Shown here piece by piece: positions 21,292 to 34,001 of a stretch of 64,000 bases of DNA. Every line of letters begins with the position of its first letter. Within the stretch, counting starts at the first letter, position 1. The stretch lies in contig JAVZVD010000001.1 in the NCBI GenBank assembly GCA_038878695.1, positions 434,001 through 498,000 on the forward strand, in the 5' to 3' direction. Source of the stretch: Fervidicoccaceae archaeon (GTDB taxonomy: Archaea > Thermoproteota > Thermoprotei_A > Sulfolobales > Fervidicoccaceae). The notes beneath the pieces are model-generated. The model saw only the letters and a program-made list of their open reading frames with translations. It did no database searches and was not told the origin of the DNA. The position numbers were made by a program, and so were the translations under genes.

Positions 21292-23502
21292 ATGTTGAAA
21301 CAAAGATCTAGAGGAATATCTCAGGCGACCATAATCGCCATAGCGGCTGTGGTCATAATCGCTGCCGTCGTGGCGGCCTACATCGCGGTTAAGGGTCCAG
21401 CCGCACCCTCGCCCACTCCAACGCCTACCCCCACGACCCCCAAGCCCACCCCCACCCCGACCCCGACGCCTGCGCCGGCCCCGACAAAACAAATCCACGA
21501 ACAGGTCCTCTACTTGATATCGAACGACGAGTTGACTCGGATCCAGATGTACAAAGCTGGAGTCTGCGACATTGCGACGATCACTCCGGCTAGATGGAAA
21601 GACGTCAATGGCTCCCCCGTGGACGGTCACAGGCTCATCCTCGAGGTGGATCCCTCAATCCTTCGCATGACGATTCAGTACGTGCTCTTCAACACGATGA
21701 GAGAGCCCTTCAACATAACGGAGGTTAGGCAGGCTCTCTCCTACGCCGTGCCCTATGATACCATAATCAGCCAGATCTTCGGCGGCCTCTACACGGGCCT
21801 CTACACCATAGTACCGAGGGGTATGTTCGGCTGGACCGAGTACGGCATAACGAAGTACACCTATGACATGGCCAAGGCCACGGAGATCATGAACTCTCTC
21901 AGGGCGAAGGGATTTGATCCCTCGAAGTACACCATCGTGATAATCTACAATCTGGGCAACACGGCCAGAGCCCAAATAGCGGCCCTGCTCCAAAACTCGT
22001 GGACTCAGTTGGGCTTCAAGGTGCTAGTCGAGGTCTACAACTGGCCTCAGTTCCTCGACAAAGTCGATCACTTCGACTACGACGTGGCGTTGCTCGGGTG
22101 GATACCAGATTATCTCGACCCCGATAATTACCTCATGCCATTCGTGTGGGGAGGAGCCGAATTCTCCGAACTGAAATACTATAAAGGGGTTAGTGCTGCC
22201 GAAGTTGGCAATTACCTGGCCAAGGTCGAGAGGGCGATTGAGACCGAGAAGTTCATTGTGGTGGTCGGTCCTAAGGGGTCGGGAGCCACTTACGCCGGGC
22301 CAACGAACAAGCCTCTGCTTGTGGTCTCCTACGTAATTGACGATGAGAAGACGAAGGAGAATTGGGAGAAGCCCATCGCTTTCGTGACGATAGGCGCGGC
22401 CGGCTGGAAAGATGTGCCGGTGAGTGCTCTCGTTAAGCTCTCTAGGACCGTGATAGACCCGGAGGCTAGAGAGGCCATCATAAACGCGGCCGTCAGGATC
22501 TTCAACAACGAGGCGGTAATGATAATGTTGGGCCAGCAGCTGGGCGGCAGGAACTATGGTAGCTGGGTCGTTGGCATGTATTATCCGCCGACGGCCTTCG
22601 CCCGCTACGATCTCGTGTGGGAGAAGCCGGATGCCCCCGTGCGCGATACCGGAGTCCTCGGAATAAAGAATGACCCGAAGACCTTCGTCTATGCCACGAT
22701 AGGTTGGCCCGACACATTCGATCCGGCCAAATCCTACGAGAGCTTCGGATGGGAGATATTCTGGCAGACTCTCAGCAAGCCCGTGACCTACTACTTCGAG
22801 AAGACGGAGCCCGAGCCGGAGCTAGCGGCGGCTTGGGCGTTTAGCCCCGACGCGACCGAGCTCTACTTAGTGATAAGAGGGGGAGTCGTGGCCTACGACC
22901 CGTGGAACAATAGGACCTATCCAATAGACGCCACCGACGTACTCTTCAGCCTATGGAGAGTGGCTAGGCTCAACCTGCCCGGCTCCGCTGCGTGGATGAT
23001 AACGGACTTCATCGACATCAACGCGTCATCGGTGTTGACCGAAGACGAGTTCAAGGAGGTTCTCGCCAAGGGTCTTGTCACGGCGTACCACGGGAGGGGC
23101 AGTGAAGTCAAGACGTTGGAGGAACTGCTATCGTTCTTCGGATACGCGGGTAAGACTGCCGGGATCGTGAGACTCAAGCTGCACTTCCCGTACCCGCCAA
23201 TACTCCACGTACTGACGACTGCGGTGGCCAGCGTCATACCCATGGAATACGCGCTCGGAGCAAACTACGCGCAAGCTCTGGCTGACTCTAACAACGGGAA
23301 GAACCCGAGCGCGTGGGCTAAGTACCTCGTGCCCGGCGTTGACGACCCGTCTCACAAGCTGCTGAGGGACAAACCCGTCTCGACCGGACCCTACTACGTG
23401 GCAGACTACAAGGAGGACGTCTATATACTGCTGAAACTCAACCCGTACTACTGGAATGCCACCTATTGGCAGGAGCTATACGGATACGCCCCCAAACGCT
23501 GA
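21292..23502 (+). CDS. peptide ABC transporter substrate-binding protein with swapped halves
   Basis: Family-5 extracellular solute-binding protein, 736 residues. N-terminal membrane anchor (residues 12-34) and Thr/Pro linker (39-64) are followed at 66 by KQIHEQVLYLISNDELTR, the start of what is normally the second half: the aGxxDI region, EPFNITEVRQALSYAV, and DYDVALLGWIPDYLDPDNY. From about residue 450 comes what is normally the first half: FVYATIGWPDTFDPAKSYES, WAFSPDATELYLVI, DATDVLFSLWRV, VSTGPYYVADY and LNPYYWN, ending GYAPKR. Aligned with the normal protein at 32184, the order is circularly permuted. ATG with GAGGGG upstream. First gene of a complete transporter operon; 131 nt separate it from the permease. 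Confidence 0.9.
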   Translation: MLKQRSRGISQATIIAIAAVVIIAAVVAAYIAVKGPAAPSPTPTPTPTTPKPTPTPTPTPAPAPTKQIHEQVLYLISNDELTRIQMYKAGVCDIATITPARWKDVNGSPVDGHRLILEVDPSILRMTIQYVLFNTMREPFNITEVRQALSYAVPYDTIISQIFGGLYTGLYTIVPRGMFGWTEYGITKYTYDMAKATEIMNSLRAKGFDPSKYTIVIIYNLGNTARAQIAALLQNSWTQLGFKVLVEVYNWPQFLDKVDHFDYDVALLGWIPDYLDPDNYLMPFVWGGAEFSELKYYKGVSAAEVGNYLAKVERAIETEKFIVVVGPKGSGATYAGPTNKPLLVVSYVIDDEKTKENWEKPIAFVTIGAAGWKDVPVSALVKLSRTVIDPEAREAIINAAVRIFNNEAVMIMLGQQLGGRNYGSWVVGMYYPPTAFARYDLVWEKPDAPVRDTGVLGIKNDPKTFVYATIGWPDTFDPAKSYESFGWEIFWQTLSKPVTYYFEKTEPEPELAAAWAFSPDATELYLVIRGGVVAYDPWNNRTYPIDATDVLFSLWRVARLNLPGSAAWMITDFIDINASSVLTEDEFKEVLAKGLVTAYHGRGSEVKTLEELLSFFGYAGKTAGIVRLKLHFPYPPILHVLTTAVASVIPMEYALGANYAQALADSNNGKNPSAWAKYLVPGVDDPSHKLLRDKPVSTGPYYVADYKEDVYILLKLNPYYWNATYWQELYGYAPKR

Positions 23503-23633: not shown

Positions 23634-24692
23634 GTGGGCTTCGCGTCATTCCTAGCGCGCAGGCTCGTTACCTTCGTGCCGACCGTGCTCGGGGTGCTGT
23701 TATTGACTTACCTCATCGCTTACGCCGTGCCAGCCGACCCGGTGCGAGCATGGGCGGGAGAGAAGGTGAGGAACCCAGAGGCTTTGCAGCAGATCCGCGA
23801 AAAGTACAAGTTCGACGCTCCGTGGTACGAACAGTTCTCGTTTCTACTTAAGCAGCTCCTCACGATGAATTTGGAAGACCCCGTCAGATCTAAGAACGTC
23901 TTCGATGAGCTCGGCTATCGGTTTCCGGTGACGGTTCAACTAGCTCTCGTCGCCTTCGCATTTCTAGTTCTCATCTCGTTGCCGCTCGGCGTGATCGCTG
24001 CTTTGAGGAAGGACACGGCCGTGGACTTCTTCGTGAGATTTCTCGCGTTGTTTGGGAGCTCCATGCCCTCCTTCGTCCTCTATTACTTCATGATATTGCT
24101 GCTGTTCGTTCGCTACCATACGACCTACATGGCAGGCATACCAACTTACTCCACTCGCTGCGCGCTTTGGCTCGATAGCCTACCATCGTCGTACCCCATA
24201 TTGGGCCACGTGCTCAGCTACATCGGAGCCGTGCCGATGTTTGGAGCTGCTATGTGCGGGGAGTGGGACGTAGTGGGCTACACGTTGAGGAGATTCTACT
24301 TGCCCGGGCTCGCTCTAGCTCTCCTCGGAGGAGGCTTCGTGGCCAGGATAGTGCGAAACAGCTTCCTAGACGCGTTAGGCTCGGAGCATGTGCTCTTTGC
24401 GAAGGCGAGAGGGCTCAAGAAGTGGAGGATCTGGAGGCACGTTTTCAAAAATGCGATGATACCCGTGGTGACGGTGCTGGGTCTACAGCTGGGAGGCCTC
24501 CTCTCGGGAGCCGTGATAGCTGAGTACGTCTTCAATATACCCGGGCTCGGGAGATACATGTACGAGTCCGTGTTGAACTTAAATTACCCCGCCATAATCG
24601 CGTCGACATTCGTCTTCGCGTTAGTCTATGTGGTGATAAACTTAGCGGTGGACATACTCTACGCGCTCATAGATCCTCGGATAAGATACTGA
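23634..24692 (+). CDS. dppB: peptide ABC transporter permease, DppB type
   Basis: Inner membrane permease of an oligopeptide/dipeptide importer, 352 residues, about six membrane helices. The N-terminus (LARRLVTFVPTVLGVLLLTYLI) and EAA loop (GSEHVLFAKARGLKKWRIWRH) are typical, as is the ending NLAVDILYALIDPRIRY. An extended extracytoplasmic segment (residues 155-210, with three Cys) is longer than in bacterial DppB. GTG start. Partner of the DppC gene 19 nt downstream. Confidence 0.94.
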   Translation: MGFASFLARRLVTFVPTVLGVLLLTYLIAYAVPADPVRAWAGEKVRNPEALQQIREKYKFDAPWYEQFSFLLKQLLTMNLEDPVRSKNVFDELGYRFPVTVQLALVAFAFLVLISLPLGVIAALRKDTAVDFFVRFLALFGSSMPSFVLYYFMILLLFVRYHTTYMAGIPTYSTRCALWLDSLPSSYPILGHVLSYIGAVPMFGAAMCGEWDVVGYTLRRFYLPGLALALLGGGFVARIVRNSFLDALGSEHVLFAKARGLKKWRIWRHVFKNAMIPVVTVLGLQLGGLLSGAVIAEYVFNIPGLGRYMYESVLNLNYPAIIASTFVFALVYVVINLAVDILYALIDPRIRY

Positions 24693-24711: not shown

Positions 24712-25806
24712 TTGGAGGCCGTCTACAGAGCGCTTACGCTGGCGATAGAGCTCTACGTGAAACTGCGCGAGAAGCTCCAAAGAGGCTGGGCCTCCAAGAA
24801 CTCCAGCAGAATCCGAGAGTGGAAGCTGACGGCCTACGCTTTCAGCAAATCGAAGATCGGGGTAGCCGGGGGCATCATTACGGCGGTCGTATTAGTTCTA
24901 GCTGTGATCGGGCCCTACATAGCGTGGGAGCCATATTGGGATTATGGGGTCTTGAGAGACCCCTCACTGCATCTCAGACCCCCCTGTCTTCCGCCGTCTT
25001 GCAGCGGTTATCCCATTTTGGGAACCGATGAGTTGGGACGCGACATTTTATCGCTCTCTCTCTATGGAGTGAGGATATCGGTCGTTATCTCCGCCGTAGT
25101 AGTGTTGTTGGGAGCGCCGCTGGGCATACTACTGGGCCTCGTGGCGGGGTACAAAGGAGGACTGATCGACGAAGTTATCATGAGGTTGACGGATGTCTTC
25201 ATAGCTTTCCCAGCTCTCATCTTGGCCATAGCCTTCGCGTCCGCTCTCCCCGGCAGAATAAGAGGCGTCCTCGAAGAGCACGAGATGCTGACAGCCCTGC
25301 TCTCCTCGCTCTTTGGCCTAAGGCCCCAAGAGTACGGACAGCTCGCGGCTCTTCTAGCGATCTGGTTGGCGTTGGTGTTGGTCTGGTGGCCCGGCTACGC
25401 GAGGGTCGTCCGCGGCGCGGTCCTCAGCGTGCGCGAGCAACCCTTCGTGGAGGCGGCGAAGCTGATTGGGTTGCCGACCTCCAGGATCCTCTTCAAGCAC
25501 GTGCTGCCCAACGTGATATCCCCGGTGCTCGTGATGATGACATTCGACCTAGCCACGGCCGCGTTGTTCGCGGCGTCGCTCTCTTTCCTTGGTCTCGGGC
25601 CGCAGGAGCCCGTAGCTGAGTTAGGCTTCCTCATATCTAAGGCCGGCCGATACTTCCCTGAGCGCACTTGGCACGCTGTGTTTTACTTCGGGAGCCTCCT
25701 GATGCTTATCGCGCTCGGCTGGAATCTCCTGGGCGATGCTTTGAGAGATATCCTCGACCCTAAGACGAGGAGAGCCGTGGAATTCGAGGCGGAGGAGAAG
25801 AGATGA
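24712..25806 (+). CDS. dppC: peptide ABC transporter permease, DppC type
   Basis: Second permease, 364 residues. Begins with a cytoplasmic segment, then the first helix GVAGGIITAVVLVLAVIGPYIA, the family motif PILGTDELGRDILS, and the EAA loop REQPFVEAAKLIGLPTSRIL, ending DALRDILDPKTRR. Usual DppC length is near 300; the extra length is a long N-terminus and a loop near residues 190-210. TTG start. Its last 4 nt overlap the start of the ATPase gene. Confidence 0.94.
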   Translation: MEAVYRALTLAIELYVKLREKLQRGWASKNSSRIREWKLTAYAFSKSKIGVAGGIITAVVLVLAVIGPYIAWEPYWDYGVLRDPSLHLRPPCLPPSCSGYPILGTDELGRDILSLSLYGVRISVVISAVVVLLGAPLGILLGLVAGYKGGLIDEVIMRLTDVFIAFPALILAIAFASALPGRIRGVLEEHEMLTALLSSLFGLRPQEYGQLAALLAIWLALVLVWWPGYARVVRGAVLSVREQPFVEAAKLIGLPTSRILFKHVLPNVISPVLVMMTFDLATAALFAASLSFLGLGPQEPVAELGFLISKAGRYFPERTWHAVFYFGSLLMLIALGWNLLGDALRDILDPKTRRAVEFEAEEKR

Positions 25807-26804
25807 AGTGTGCTCTACGCGAGGACGAGATACTGAGGGTTCGAGATCTCGACGTGAGGTTCTATACTTACGCCGGCGAGGTCCACGCGGTATCGCGCGT
25901 CTCGTTTAACGTCCGCGCGAACGAGACCGTCGCCCTGGTCGGCGAGACCGGCTGCGGCAAGACCGTGACCACTAGGGCCCTGACGAGGCTTATCGAGGCG
26001 CCCGGAAAGATCGTCGGAGGATCCGCACTCTTCAGGAGGCGAGACGGGAGCGTGGTGGACCTGCTGAGGCTCAGCGACGATGAGATAAGGAGGATCCGAG
26101 GCGACGAGATAGCGTATATATTTCAAGATCCCTCGTCGGCTCTCGACCCGCTATACACGGTCGGCTACCACGTGTGGGAGACCGTGGCCGATCACAGGAG
26201 CGCCAAGAAGAGGGAGGTTCTGAGAGAGGCCGTTAGGCTTCTGAGAGAGACGGCTGTAGCGAGCCCTGAGAAGAGAGTAAAGAGCTATCCCCACGAGCTC
26301 TCCGGAGGCATGAGGCAGAGAGTAGTCATAGCGCTCGGCATAGCGAATGGGCCGAGAATGCTAATAGCCGATGAGCCGACCACGAATCTAGACGTCACGG
26401 TTCAAGCGCAGATACTAGAGCTCCTCCGCGATATACAGAAGAAGCATTCGACCTCGATACTTCTGATAACCCACAACATGGGGGTCGTGGCCGAGATGGC
26501 CAGCAGAGTATACGTGATGTACGCTGGGAAGATAGTCGAGGAGGGTGGGGTCGAAGAGATATTCTACGACCCTCTTCATCCCTATACCACGTTGCTACTT
26601 AGAGCAGTGCCCAATCCTCTGAGTCCATCCGCGAGGCTCCAACAGATACCGGGTTTCGTGCCGTCACTCATCGATCCTCCGCCGGGCTGCAGATTCCACC
26701 CCAGGTGCCCCAAGGCCGTGGAGATCTGCAGGCTCAAGGAGCCGCCCGAGGTAGAGCTCGGGGGAGGCAGGAGGGTCTCCTGCTGGCTGTATACGGGGGA
26801 GTGA
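25803..26804 (+). CDS. dppD: peptide ABC transporter ATPase, DppD type
   Basis: ATP-hydrolysing subunit, 333 residues. Walker A GETGCGKT, Q-loop FQDPSSALDP, signature LSGGMRQR and Walker B MLIADEPT are intact. The C-terminal oligopeptide-transporter domain has PGCRFHPRCPKAVEIC and a later Cys (SCW), the C-x5-C-x6-C pattern that holds an iron-sulfur cluster in studied OppD proteins. ATG overlaps dppC. The final 122 nt block is identical to one in dppF. Confidence 0.96.
   Translation: MKCALREDEILRVRDLDVRFYTYAGEVHAVSRVSFNVRANETVALVGETGCGKTVTTRALTRLIEAPGKIVGGSALFRRRDGSVVDLLRLSDDEIRRIRGDEIAYIFQDPSSALDPLYTVGYHVWETVADHRSAKKREVLREAVRLLRETAVASPEKRVKSYPHELSGGMRQRVVIALGIANGPRMLIADEPTTNLDVTVQAQILELLRDIQKKHSTSILLITHNMGVVAEMASRVYVMYAGKIVEEGGVEEIFYDPLHPYTTLLLRAVPNPLSPSARLQQIPGFVPSLIDPPPGCRFHPRCPKAVEICRLKEPPEVELGGGRRVSCWLYTGE
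26670..26791 (+). repeat. 122-bp perfect direct repeat, copy 1 (in dppD)
   Basis: Identical base for base to 27645-27766. It encodes the C-terminal cysteine motif and end of the ATPase domain. Flanking sequence diverges at once on both sides. Confidence 0.95.
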
Positions 26805-26807
26805 GCA

Positions 26808-27782
26808 TTGGGTGAGCAGGCGGTTCTGCTCGACGTCAGGAACCTCAGGAAGTACTTCGGCGTCCGAGGATCTCTCTTCAAGAAGGTGCGCGCCGTAGAT
26901 GGCGTGTCCTTTCAAATCCGCCGAGGCGAGACTTTCGGGCTCGTAGGGGAGACCGGCTCGGGCAAATCGACGCTTGGCAGGACCGTTTTGATGCTCTACG
27001 AGCCTACATCGGGGGAAATATATTTTGACGGAGTGAACGTGGTCAAGGCCAGAGGGAAGAGCCTCAAGCTCTTTAGGCGCAGCGCTCAGATGGTCTTTCA
27101 GGACCCTCACACGTCTCTCAATCCTAGGATGACGATAGCCGAGATACTGCTCGAGCCCCTCCGCGAGCATGGTCTGATCTCGGGAGACCCCGAGGGCTTC
27201 CTCGTAGAGCACATGAAGAGCGTCGGGCTAGGCGCGGAGCACTTGTATAGGTACCCCCATGAGCTTTCGGGAGGTCAAAAACAGAGAGTCGCTATCCTGC
27301 GGGCTGTGCTATTGAGGCCTAAATTCATTGTACTGGACGAGCCGACGAGCTCTCTGGACGTCTCGGTCCAGGCTCAGATACTGGAGCTCCTCAGAGAGCT
27401 CCAGTCAATGTACAACCTCACGTACATGTTCATTTCGCACGATATAGCCGTCGTGAGGCATATGAGCGATAGGATCGCCGTGATGTATTTGGGCAAGATC
27501 GTGGAAATAGGAGCCTCGGAGGAGGTGTTCCTAGAGCCTCTACATCCTTACACGCAGGCCCTCTTTTCCTCGATTCCGATCCCCGACCCGCGCCTAACGA
27601 AGAGCAGGACTAAGATAAAGCTCATCGGGGAGCCGAGCAGCCCGATCGATCCTCCGCCGGGCTGCAGATTCCACCCCAGGTGCCCCAAGGCCGTGGAGAT
27701 CTGCAGGCTCAAGGAGCCGCCCGAGGTAGAGCTCGGGGGAGGCAGGAGGGTCTCCTGCTGGCTGTACGCTCCCCCGCCGTGA
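26808..27782 (+). CDS. dppF: peptide ABC transporter ATPase, DppF type
   Basis: Second ATPase, 324 residues. Walker A GETGSGKS, Q-loop FQDPHTSLNPRMT, signature LSGGQKQR, Walker B FIVLDEPTSSLDVS, and the C-terminal cysteine domain shared with dppD. TTG start 3 nt after the dppD stop. It ends the operon. It may also serve the second permease pair at 34008-35821, which has no ATPases of its own. Confidence 0.95.
   Translation: MGEQAVLLDVRNLRKYFGVRGSLFKKVRAVDGVSFQIRRGETFGLVGETGSGKSTLGRTVLMLYEPTSGEIYFDGVNVVKARGKSLKLFRRSAQMVFQDPHTSLNPRMTIAEILLEPLREHGLISGDPEGFLVEHMKSVGLGAEHLYRYPHELSGGQKQRVAILRAVLLRPKFIVLDEPTSSLDVSVQAQILELLRELQSMYNLTYMFISHDIAVVRHMSDRIAVMYLGKIVEIGASEEVFLEPLHPYTQALFSSIPIPDPRLTKSRTKIKLIGEPSSPIDPPPGCRFHPRCPKAVEICRLKEPPEVELGGGRRVSCWLYAPPP
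27645..27766 (+). repeat. 122-bp perfect direct repeat, copy 2 (in dppF)
   Basis: Identical to 26670-26791, including third codon positions, while the rest of the two ATPase genes is only distantly related. Points to recent gene conversion. Confidence 0.95.
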
Positions 27783-27804: not shown

Positions 27805-28428
27805 TCACTCCTCGGTTTCCCTTCTCATCTCGCTCGATAGGGATAGAGCCCCGAGGACGCTGCTCTTAATAGCGAAGCTACCGATGACCACGTGGACTGC
27901 TTTTCTTTTCCTCTCGATGGAGTACAACGCGAGGACTCGCCTGAAAGACTGCGGGGACCTCTCGTCGATCAGACCGGTCTCCTCGAGCAGCTCTAACAGG
28001 ATGGACGATTTAATTCCACTCGCTAGGCTCGCGCCGAGTCTCTCGACGTCTCCAATCACCCACCTCGCCGGGGAAAGCAGATGAGAGAGGGCCCATCTAT
28101 TGGCGCTGAAGCTTTCGAGGCGGCGCCTCTCTCTTAGCTCAATCGCCGCTCTCAAAGCGTAGTCGACGCACTCTTCTAGCTCGTGTTGGGAGCACTCTCC
28201 CTCAAGCAGAGCCGCATCGATGGGAGGCCTCTCGGTTAAGCTGGGCTCTAAGGGGAGGCGTATTATAGAAAGCACCCTAGCCAACTTAGGCTCACGTGCC
28301 CTCGAAGTAAGGGAGCAATCTAATAGGAACCAAGCCCCTTTGCTCTTGAAGAGACCGGCGTGGGCCCACGCGAGCTCTCCCTCTCGCGGCACGGCGCTCG
28401 GGTCCACGGCTACATACAACCGGCTCAA
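27805..28428 (-). CDS. hypothetical protein (207 aa)
   Basis: Unrecognised. Starts with a strand-like MSRLYVAVDPSAVPREGELA, has WFLLDCSL, and a mostly helical C-terminal half rich in Arg/Glu/Leu. No signal peptide or membrane segment. Its start overlaps the 3' end of the secreted S16 protease gene by 4 nt on the same strand, so the two are translationally coupled; a role with that protease is an inference only. Confidence 0.7.
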   Translation of the reverse strand: MSRLYVAVDPSAVPREGELAWAHAGLFKSKGAWFLLDCSLTSRAREPKLARVLSIIRLPLEPSLTERPPIDAALLEGECSQHELEECVDYALRAAIELRERRRLESFSANRWALSHLLSPARWVIGDVERLGASLASGIKSSILLELLEETGLIDERSPQSFRRVLALYSIERKRKAVHVVIGSFAIKSSVLGALSLSSEMRRETEE

Positions 28429-30332
28429 GTCCGAGACCTCTCGATCAAGGCCAAGAGACCTAAGACCGCGGCTATTAAAACGAGCATTGAGAGTGTGACG
28501 TACGCGACGGAGAGACTCGGTTGGCTAACTGACTCGGACTGCGGGCTTCTCGTTAGGATCTCCGCGCTTACGCTGAGCCCGTCTCGTTGCGTTTGCGAGA
28601 GCACGCCGCTCGTCATCAGTATTAAGAGCGCTCTCTCATAGTACATGATAGCTCCGCCTAAATCGCCCCGCGCCTCTCTCGAGCTCCCCATTTGGAAGTA
28701 GAGCTTGGCCGAGAGGGGCTCCCGTCCCCCCGATCTCGTCGTCGCCAGAGATATCTGCGCCTTGAGAGGAGCGACGAGAGAGCCCAGGTCGAGCGCGTAA
28801 ATCTCGTGCAACGAGAGAGTAGAATCTAGGACTACTTCCAGGCTCAAGGCCATGGCGGCGACGACGTCGCCCGCCTCGAAGGAGGCGACAGCCTCGCTCA
28901 GCCTCTCTTCTAGTTCGTCTATGCTCGGGAAGCTCCCCCCAGAGGCCTGTAGGGACTCTAGGTAGCTGACGCAGGTCTTGGCGTAGCTAAGGAGCCAAGC
29001 GGTAAGTCTGTCGAAGTAAGCGACCGGGAAGGACTCCTCTCGCTCTATGTCGGCCAGCTCGAGCCAGAAGCCGGCAGATTTCATCCTGGCATCGGCATAG
29101 GACGCGTAATAGACGGCTTCGATAGGGCTTGTCGAGATAAGCGAAGAGGCCTTGCTAAGGCTATCGGACGCGTCCACGAGTCTAGCGTAGACTTCCTGGA
29201 GGCAGAAGAACTCGTCGACCGACATGGAGCCGACGCGAGTCCTAACCGAGTAGAGCTCTCGGTAGCGCTCTAAAGAGGAGCGCAGCCTCTCGATGTAGCT
29301 CGATGCGAAGCCCCGCACGTCGCCGGACTCATATGCAGCAAGAGTATTCTCGGCGGCGAGAGAAGTATAGAAAGAAACGAACGCGTACGAGAGCGCCGGG
29401 TAATATAGCTCGGAGTCCCAAAGTTTCTCGGACTCATTGAGGAAGCTCTCGGACGAGCTCAACAAGTCCTCGAGGTACGAGCGCAAGCTCTCGTTCTTCG
29501 CGACTCGAATCGCCTCGCTCGATGCACGAGAGAGCGCGCCTCTGGCCTGCTCGGAGAGCAGCGCATAGTATTTCTCCAATAGCCTCTCTTCGTCTCCCCT
29601 AAGGGAAGGCCTCCACGTGCTCCCGTTTAGCGTCAGATCCAAGCCGGTGAAGTATCGCAGAGCGTCGGCCAGAGTGGCCACCTCGACGACGACCGCGCCG
29701 CGTGACGCCGCGATCTGCGAAACATTCACGAGAGTGGTCGTTGGAACGATCACGGTTCGACGACCCACGCGCTCCTCGACGTAAGTCGTCTTATTGTAGA
29801 GCGACTGCCCCATCGGCACTAAGATGAGCTTGTAGCCAGCCTCGAGGGCCGCGGCGACTTTCTCCGGCACTCCTCCCACGGGTCCAACGAGTCCATCCGG
29901 GAATATCATTCCGGTGGCGACCACGCCCGGTCTGATGGTCGAGTTGGTGAGAGCAGAGAAGATGGCCACGCTCATGGGGAGGCCGGCCGAGGGACCCCCT
30001 ATGATCGGAGAATCGGCCCTAACCGCGACGAGGTAGTCGAACGAGAAGAGGTCAACTCCGGCCAGATAAGCGGCCACGAAGGCGGCCGCTCTCGCCGAAG
30101 CCTGAAGATCTACGTCGCTGAGCGGCTCGGTCGCCACGTAGACCGTCCCGGATCCAGGTCGCAGGACCCTCACGTCCACTCTGCTGACCGAGCCCACGAG
30201 AGTGTTGTTCGCCGTCTGAGAGACAGCCAGCGCGGGAACCGAGGCCGAGCCCACCGGGCTCGAGCAGTCGCCGAGCAAGGCCCCGAGCGCGAGTAAGACG
30301 AGAAGAGTCGCCGACAAAGTTGACCAACGCAA
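28425..30332 (-). CDS. secreted membrane-anchored S16 (Lon-type) protease
   Basis: 635 residues. Signal peptide (STLSATLLVLLALGALL), then an S16 proteolytic domain with the Ser-Lys dyad: S115 in IGGPSAGLPM and K158 in GPVGGVPEKVAAAL. No AAA+ domain is fused, unlike LonA/LonB. Residues 240-600 are long helices rich in Tyr, Ser and Ala, and the protein ends in a membrane helix (VTLSMLVLIAAVLGLLALI) with a basic tail, so the protease faces outside. Set between two peptide importer operons, it probably helps in extracellular protein use or envelope quality control. Confidence 0.88.
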   Translation of the reverse strand: MRWSTLSATLLVLLALGALLGDCSSPVGSASVPALAVSQTANNTLVGSVSRVDVRVLRPGSGTVYVATEPLSDVDLQASARAAAFVAAYLAGVDLFSFDYLVAVRADSPIIGGPSAGLPMSVAIFSALTNSTIRPGVVATGMIFPDGLVGPVGGVPEKVAAALEAGYKLILVPMGQSLYNKTTYVEERVGRRTVIVPTTTLVNVSQIAASRGAVVVEVATLADALRYFTGLDLTLNGSTWRPSLRGDEERLLEKYYALLSEQARGALSRASSEAIRVAKNESLRSYLEDLLSSSESFLNESEKLWDSELYYPALSYAFVSFYTSLAAENTLAAYESGDVRGFASSYIERLRSSLERYRELYSVRTRVGSMSVDEFFCLQEVYARLVDASDSLSKASSLISTSPIEAVYYASYADARMKSAGFWLELADIEREESFPVAYFDRLTAWLLSYAKTCVSYLESLQASGGSFPSIDELEERLSEAVASFEAGDVVAAMALSLEVVLDSTLSLHEIYALDLGSLVAPLKAQISLATTRSGGREPLSAKLYFQMGSSREARGDLGGAIMYYERALLILMTSGVLSQTQRDGLSVSAEILTRSPQSESVSQPSLSVAYVTLSMLVLIAAVLGLLALIERSRT

Positions 30333-32183: not shown

Positions 32184-34001
32184 GTGGGAGATTTGGCCCT
32201 CGAGCGCGTCGCCGCTCTCCTTCTCTTAATAGCGCTTCTAGTGCCGACTGCGAGCGAGATAGTCGAAGCGCAGGTGAGGAGAGACGGCACGCCAGGCGGC
32301 GTGTTGATACAGGCTATAGTGGGCGACCCGCCCCACCTCAACGTGGGGATAACGACGAGCGTCGCAGCTCTGATATGTAGCGCGGGGATCTTCGAGTCGC
32401 TGCTGAGATTCGACGAGCAATTCAATCCGTACCCAGGTCTCGCCGAGCGATGGGAGATATCTCCCGACGGGAAAGAGTTCACGTTCTACTTGGTAAAGAA
32501 CGCCACCTGGCACGACGGCACACCCTTCACGGCTCAAGACGTCAAGTTCACTTTCGAGAGAGTGCTCGCCAGATATCACCCGAGAGAGAGGGAGGTGCTC
32601 AGAACCCTCGATAGGGTCGAAGTCTTGGACAATTACACGGTCAAGTTCCTCTTCAAGGAGCCCAACGCGGTTTTCCTCTACACGCTCAATGTGCACAACG
32701 CGCCGATCCTGCCAAAGCATCTACTGGAGCCCTACGCGGACAATATGACGGCCGCTCCGTTCAATTCCAAGCCGGTGGGCACAGGGCCCTTCAGATTCGT
32801 CGAGTGGAGAAAGGGAGAATACGTGAGGCTCGAGAGGAACCCCAACTACTATCTACCGGGCCTGCCGTATCTGGACGGCATCGTGACCAGGATCTTCAGA
32901 GACGCCGTGTCGGCCGTCCTCGCTCTCGAGAAAGGCGAGGTGGACTACATAACAGGTTACTACATGCCGCTGAGCGAGGCCAAGAGGCTCCAGGGCTCTA
33001 AGGACATAGTGCTCACCGATAGGGGCACAACCATTACTTCACCGATCTTCCTGATGTTCTACAATATTCACAAGGCGCCTCTCAACAATCTAGAGTTCAG
33101 GAAGGCCGTGGCATATGCCATAAATAGGCAGGAGATACTAGACAAAGTGTTCTTTGGGTTCGGGAGAGTAGCGACCGGACCCATACCGAGCTCCAGCTGG
33201 GCATACACCGGCGACGTGGAGAAGTACGAGTTCAATCCCGAGAAAGCGAAGCAGATCCTCGACTCTCTGGGCTTCAGAGATATTGATAACGACGGATTCA
33301 GGGAGTTCCCCAACGGTACTAAACTCGTCTTGACGTTCCCCTATAACTCGGGCGTCGCGATTCACGAGAGGACGGCGCAGCTCGTGGCGGACATGCTGAG
33401 GAACGTCGGCATAAAGGTTGAGCTCAAAGCCTACGACGAGGCCACGCTGACAACTACTGTTTACTCGAGACGCGAATTCGACTTAGCGGTCGAGAGATTT
33501 TCAACCGGCCCCGACCCCGTGGTCGGAATAGGCAGGCTGTTCCTCAGCACCTACGCCTTCTCCGGAGTGCCCTTCAGCAACTCGGCTGTCAGCTACAACA
33601 ACAGCGAAGTCGACAAGCTGTTGACCGAGGCCTCCAGGGTGGTCGATAGGACCATCAGGAAGCAGCTCTTCGAGGAGTTCCAACGCATAGTCGCGAGGGA
33701 TCTACCTTATCTACCGCTGGTTGAGGTGAGCGACGTGGCCGCGATCAGGAGCAACGTGAGAAACTTACACGCTTGGAGCGCGGAGTCCAGAGTCGAGAGG
33801 GTCGACGTGTGGATCGCTAAGATCGCCCCCGCTCCGACGCCTACACCGACGCCCACACCCGCATCAACGCCCACCCCCACGACCCCCAAGCCTACTCCCA
33901 CGCCCACGGGACCCAGTACCGGAGTGATTGTTGCGATCGCTGCGGCGGTCGCGATCGCTGTAGTAGCCGCTTATGCTATCACGAAGAGTAAGAGGAAGTA
34001 G
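32184..34001 (+). CDS. peptide ABC transporter substrate-binding protein (family 5)
   Basis: 605 residues in the normal order: signal peptide (ALLLLIALLVPTASEIVEA), first half with FESLLRFDEQFNPYPGLAE, DGKEFTFYLVKNATWHDG, FTAQDVKFTFERVL, VGTGPFRFVEWRKGEYV and NPNYY, then second half with KGEVDYI, NNLEFRKAVAYAINRQEIL and the C-terminal lobe. A Thr/Pro linker and C-terminal membrane helix (VIVAIAAAVAIAVVAAYAI, KSKRK tail) anchor it outside. GTG at 32184 chosen; a TTG at 32193 is also possible. Operon with two permeases but no ATPase genes. Confidence 0.93.
   Translation: MGDLALERVAALLLLIALLVPTASEIVEAQVRRDGTPGGVLIQAIVGDPPHLNVGITTSVAALICSAGIFESLLRFDEQFNPYPGLAERWEISPDGKEFTFYLVKNATWHDGTPFTAQDVKFTFERVLARYHPREREVLRTLDRVEVLDNYTVKFLFKEPNAVFLYTLNVHNAPILPKHLLEPYADNMTAAPFNSKPVGTGPFRFVEWRKGEYVRLERNPNYYLPGLPYLDGIVTRIFRDAVSAVLALEKGEVDYITGYYMPLSEAKRLQGSKDIVLTDRGTTITSPIFLMFYNIHKAPLNNLEFRKAVAYAINRQEILDKVFFGFGRVATGPIPSSSWAYTGDVEKYEFNPEKAKQILDSLGFRDIDNDGFREFPNGTKLVLTFPYNSGVAIHERTAQLVADMLRNVGIKVELKAYDEATLTTTVYSRREFDLAVERFSTGPDPVVGIGRLFLSTYAFSGVPFSNSAVSYNNSEVDKLLTEASRVVDRTIRKQLFEEFQRIVARDLPYLPLVEVSDVAAIRSNVRNLHAWSAESRVERVDVWIAKIAPAPTPTPTPTPASTPTPTTPKPTPTPTGPSTGVIVAIAAAVAIAVVAAYAITKSKRK

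Follow-up and report, generated by a model that had tools for sequence, protein, structure and literature searches.

Circular permutation of a family-5 substrate-binding protein in an archaeal Opp/Dpp-type ABC importer

Natural circular permutation of a substrate-binding protein (SBP) has been described in Treponema pallidum, in which TpMglB-2 (Tp0684), a cluster B binding protein, carries its parts in permuted order ('Type Ic'), and its authors suggest an adaptation to membrane tethering (PMC4990184). In the canonical cluster C proteins DppA and OppA (SBP_bac_5, PF00496) the modules run N-M-C, and Asp408/436 of DppA binds the amino group of the peptide ligand (PMC12136057, PMC8566422).

Here we analysed 64,000 nucleotides of a contig from a Fervidicoccaceae archaeon (the window) encoding a 736-aa SBP (type A below). 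It shares with DppA/OppA the modules, the ligand Asp and the transporter partners, but its modules are rotated, about 60 extra residues lie between M and C, and its N-terminal anchor precedes a different segment. Like TpMglB-2, it is a tethered binding protein of an ABC importer and has been circularly permuted in nature. However, TpMglB-2 is a bacterial, sugar-binding cluster B protein with one permutation reported, whereas the present system is archaeal, belongs to cluster C and shows at least two, probably three, rotations in one orthologous system. Both the type A sequence and its listed fold matches point to family-5 (cluster C) proteins, not to cluster B MglB-like ones. The first-pass annotation knew of no natural permutation in this family. 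We likewise found none linked with OppA, DppA or family 5 in the open-access literature, and only canonical proteins were seen in a PDB search for a solved permuted relative; outside family 5, TpMglB-2 is a described case. Natural SBP permutation is already known, and what appears new here is its occurrence in cluster C, in archaea and as several rotations of one orthologous system.

Module order of the 736-aa protein

The 736-aa protein had been proposed to be circularly permuted, with the half that normally comes second placed first, and PF00496 bore this out. Two matches with reversed model coordinates were found, residues 70-285 corresponding to model positions 149-361 and a later stretch to positions 1-142 (E values of 2.5e-40 and 2.6e-13 in the genome search). 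A rotated copy (residues 458-736 followed by 66-457) gave a single collinear match covering positions 1-361 of 368 and scored 193.6 bits, compared with 183.4 bits for the split native order and a cut-off of 32.4. Joining the C terminus to residue 66 therefore rebuilds the domain, as had been predicted. The other family-5 protein of the window, a normal-order DppA/OppA-like member of cluster C, serves as the internal control for which it had been put forward, its match being collinear (model positions 2-356 at residues 82-449).

Residues 370-446 fall outside PF00496. When aligned with hhalign, they were placed at columns 483-559 of the 561-column canonical profile (E about 1e-9 to 1e-10; 4.5e-9 for type A), with no second placement in that profile; type A thus retains the C-terminal stretch that returns towards lobe I. 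Together, the order of the PF00496 stretches and the placement of this segment give the order M-C-N in place of canonical N-M-C, and the modules become collinear as in solved cluster C structures only after rotation. The permutation is confirmed, and the 736-aa protein is, by its sequence, a permuted derivative of SBP_bac_5 (cluster C) and not an ordinary member. Two details of the first-pass annotation needed adjustment. Its starting point for the second half, about residue 450, lies near the true one, although module N actually begins at about residue 459. It had also placed the new termini at a lobe hinge; the cut instead sits in the lobe-I loop that follows NPYYW, and the first hinge strand (residues ~126-134, using the hinge strands of PMC7312458) comes some 60 residues further on. 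The features of the locus are collected in Table 1.

Table 1. Features of the permuted gene, its operon and the canonical paralogue (positions in the window)
Feature	Position	Strand	Basis
Circularly permuted (type A) family-5 substrate-binding protein gene, 736 aa	21292..23502	+	ORF and PF00496
Hydrophobic N-terminal membrane anchor/signal segment, residues 8-35	21313..21396	+	sequence, hydropathy
Thr/Pro-rich linker, residues 36-65	21397..21486	+	sequence
Module M, canonical middle part, residues 66-296, PF00496 about 149-361	21487..22179	+	PF00496, module scan
Asp273 in GWIPDYLDPDNY, aligned with DppA Asp408/436	22108..22110	+	alignment; role per PMC12136057, PMC8566422
M-to-C junction with beta-hairpin, residues 297-369, 73 aa	22180..22398	+	junction comparison, model
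Module C, canonical extreme C terminus, here mid-protein, residues 370-446	22399..22629	+	module scan, hhalign
Old C terminus joined to old N terminus, residues 447-458	22630..22665	+	junction comparison
Module N, canonical N-terminal half, residues 459-728, PF00496 1-142; new C-terminal tail to 736	22666..23499	+	
OppB/DppB-type permease (BPD_transp_1, BPD_transp_1_N)	23634..24692	+	domains, synteny
OppC/DppC-type permease (BPD_transp_1, OppC_N)	24712..25806	+	domains, synteny
OppD/DppD-type ATPase (ABC_tran, oligo_HPY)	25803..26804	+	domains, synteny
OppF/DppF-type ATPase (ABC_tran, oligo_HPY)	26808..27782	+	domains, synteny
Family-5 binding protein in canonical order, with Thr/Pro linker and anchor at the C terminus, outside the permuted system	32184..34001	+	PF00496

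Orthologues with this order, which the first-pass annotation had suggested looking for, do exist. Among 59 related genomes searched, five full-length collinear orthologues showed 69-72% identity and another four about 47%, and two further contigs, from a Desulfurococcales MAG and a Thermoprotei MAG, carry relatives at 77 and 72% identity. After wider searches the type A set comprised 30 proteins from 30 genomes, drawn from several families of the phylum and including some single-contig assemblies. The junctions are conserved in alignment A1, with full-length identities of 47-77%.

These relatives bear on two other ways of obtaining such a sequence. The genome of the window consists of 5 contigs and may be a MAG, so that a misassembly or chimeric contig, which had been named as a possible refutation, might be suspected; yet the M-C-N order recurs in 29 other genomes, including the single-contig G034, G244, G279 and G374, and this agreement among independent genomes rules out misassembly, whose chance we consider negligible. 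Identical order would also be seen if fragments of two different binding-protein paralogues had once been fused, that is, by domain shuffling and not by permutation of one ancestor. However, the pieces complement each other, rotation raises the score of the sequence as a single domain, and the combined modules yield a tree that closely resembles the one from the partner genes, all of which makes shuffling very improbable. As to how the permutation arose, the ends are complementary and the old termini are joined, which fits tandem duplication followed by loss of the outer halves; such an origin, already suggested in the first-pass annotation, is plausible. No duplicated intermediate gene was found in the loci examined. 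One 1297-aa ORF, in locus L169, was considered as a tandem intermediate and set aside, as it proved to be a GH3-like gene joined through a stretch of N.

Three permuted forms and their transport system

The 736-aa protein is neither unique nor the only permuted form. The module scan distinguished 30 type A proteins (M-C-N), 30 proteins of order C-N-M, which form types B and C, and 14 canonical ones, with no mixed cases. In type B (18 proteins from 16 genomes) the opening immediately precedes the strand VIETSxAVVVV; in type C (12 proteins from 12 genomes) it lies one strand further on, at the hairpin turn. In hhalign, the C modules of the three forms all map solely to the canonical C terminus. 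One genome, G359, carries both type A and type C, and a contig of G118 carries type B. Types B and C score as normal single PF00496 matches, because their displaced C segment lies outside that model. These normal-looking, single-domain SBPs are encoded in L064-L068, L153-L156, L158, L165, L166, L069-L078 and L096-L103. Three type B paralogues (L076, L077 and L078) occur in genome G081, where operon partners were seen beside L076 only. The suggestion that type B corresponds to the Aeropyrum oligopeptide-binding protein of the literature was dropped, the 802-aa canonical ORF of G032 with a PKD-like N-terminal region being a different gene. An 802-aa canonical family-5 SBP is encoded at L172:5555-7960 (minus strand) and has PKD-like repeats that separate its N-terminal anchor from the binding domain.

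The phylum search gave a single above-threshold match in canonical order, L171 (genome G252, 645 aa). It has the N-terminal anchor and the five-gene operon in common with the permuted system but, unlike the permuted forms, retains the order N-M-C and a short M-C junction (12 aa).

In the window, the permuted gene lies beside two BPD_transp_1 permeases of OppB/OppC type and two oligo_HPY ATPases, and permease-permease-ATPase-ATPase genes accompany the permuted SBPs at almost every locus for which the contig extends far enough; at some type B loci the SBP gene is transcribed divergently from its four partners. Types A, B and C are under purifying selection, with dN/dS values of 0.02-0.07 in close pairs of all three forms, at unsaturated synonymous sites. 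A hydrophobic N-terminal anchor was found in 59 of the 60 permuted proteins, the exception beginning at a contig end, and a C-terminal one in none of the 60. Asp273 (GWIPDYLDPDNY) is invariant among type A proteins in alignment A1, and the motif is kept in B and C. From these features, the 736-aa protein is very probably the membrane-tethered SBP that serves an Opp/Dpp-type ABC importer, with a circularly permuted family-5 (cluster C) domain.

Several other genes adjoin these operons. Just downstream of the type A operon in the window, on the opposite strand, lies a gene (28425-30332, minus strand) for a 635-aa protein that has a proteolytic domain of the Lon (S16) type and carries hydrophobic segments at its two termini. 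At another locus, a tricorn protease gene (PF03572, PF14684, PF14685; L160:7929-11009, minus strand) is located directly upstream of a type A SBP operon on the same strand; a second tricorn gene among the scanned neighbours is probably L162:7556-10615, and a zinc carboxypeptidase gene was seen near a type C operon. A large beta-propeller gene (PF09826; L089:8200-10476, minus strand) stands on the opposite strand between a type A SBP gene and its permeases, with similar ORFs at the equivalent place in L090 and L091.

AlphaFold models of types A and C were of moderate confidence (pLDDT 76 and 78, respectively). In sequential Foldseek comparisons the type A model covered about 355 of ~507 DppA columns (TM about 0.42), and the type C model about 480 columns of DppA-like structures (TM about 0.6-0.68). 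The longer coverage of type C is expected if type A is rotated further from the canonical order; since Foldseek aligns sequentially, the partial match of type A is only consistent with permutation. Once folded, the type A protein would remain an ordinary two-lobed Venus-flytrap, binding peptide (or oligosaccharide) and handing it over to the permease, with the tether attached at a different point on its surface.

Junction scars and order of events

The junctions differ among the forms in a way that may record how they arose. The C>N junction, between the old termini, is open in canonical proteins only and is closed by 4-21 aa in types A, B and C. The M>C junction measures 12 aa in canonical L171 and 69-75 aa in type A, and is open in B and C; the extra length in type A corresponds to the C-terminal tail plus the N-terminal lead of type C. 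The N>M junction comprises 4 aa in canonical proteins and 3-6 aa in type C, is open in type A, and in type B combines 8-10 aa with an NxTLW..YG insertion similar to the C-terminal tail of type A. We infer that the added stretch at each once-free, now joined terminus is a fusion scar, although an insertion that preceded the cut would leave a look-alike stretch.

An SBP tree, built from the three modules restored to canonical order and rooted on canonical proteins, placed type C basally and type B (bootstrap 99) within a paraphyletic type A. A transporter tree of the two permeases and two ATPases, with the permuted gene left out, agreed with stronger support: type C was again basal and B lay inside A, with backbone values of 100, 99 and 97 and 100 for B, while support was only 46 for the node that unites B with the closest A group. 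The simplest history suggested by these data is canonical to C to A to B. The old termini would have been joined first, with a new opening in lobe II (type C); the opening would then have moved to the lobe-I loop (type A, including the 736-aa protein) and later returned almost to its first place (type B). Each permutation could have proceeded via tandem duplication or fusion and loss of outer parts, the N-terminal anchor and linker staying in front throughout.

Since the openings of types B and C lie only about 20 residues apart, both forms might instead share an ancestral C-N-M order, with a monophyletic type A and two permutations, not three. The SBP alignment alone did not reject such monophyly (AU P = 0.125 and 0.06; AU tests were run first on fast tree searches and repeated with longer, time-limited searches), but the transporter genes did (P = 0.0085 with and 0.0017 without outgroups), B is nested within A in both trees, and the N>M insertion of B resembles the type A tail; a single origin of type A is thus unlikely. 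The position of the termini may also have drifted neutrally, with no effect on tethering or transport. Fold and partners are retained, and binding proteins generally tolerate engineered permutation, so that we place neutral drift slightly on the likely side of even, although repeated change under a fixed N-terminal anchor suggests, without proving, that tether position matters. The fuller proposal, that one orthologous importer was permuted three times (canonical to C to A to B, the last step almost a reversal), its anchor always N-terminal and selection on tether position rotating the domain, is a tentative possibility, less likely than not. The cargo is a separate matter. DppA Arg383, which binds the dipeptide carboxylate, is not conserved and aligns with a Tyr in the 736-aa protein, and a few glycosidase genes (GH57, GH1 and GH3-like) lie near some operons, leaving the ligand uncertain. 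Some archaeal and Thermotoga Opp/Dpp-type systems carry oligosaccharides, and this importer might do the same. Against oligosaccharides, the Asp that aligns with the one holding the peptide amino group in DppA is invariant, and tricorn protease and zinc carboxypeptidase (M14) genes lie near other operons. In Staphylothermus marinus, two five-gene peptide ABC transporters are listed in the genome paper, which makes no mention of permutation (PMC2678158); the permuted system may be one of them. Oligosaccharide import therefore appears possible but doubtful, and peptide import, which we regard as probable, is our best guess.

Implications for binding-protein evolution and annotation

These findings suggest that a binding domain whose function is under selection has apparently been cut and rejoined repeatedly, leaving three versions across dozens of related archaea. 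Such material is rare, as several permuted forms, each under selection, can be dated by their co-travelling transporter genes, and permutation can be followed stepwise through visible fusion scars. The system also allows the effect of tether position on binding-protein-dependent transport to be tested. Finally, given that types B and C look normal to Pfam, it offers a gauge of how far annotation misses permutation: further permuted SBPs may go unnoticed among annotated proteins, since PF00496 stops short of the C-terminal segment.
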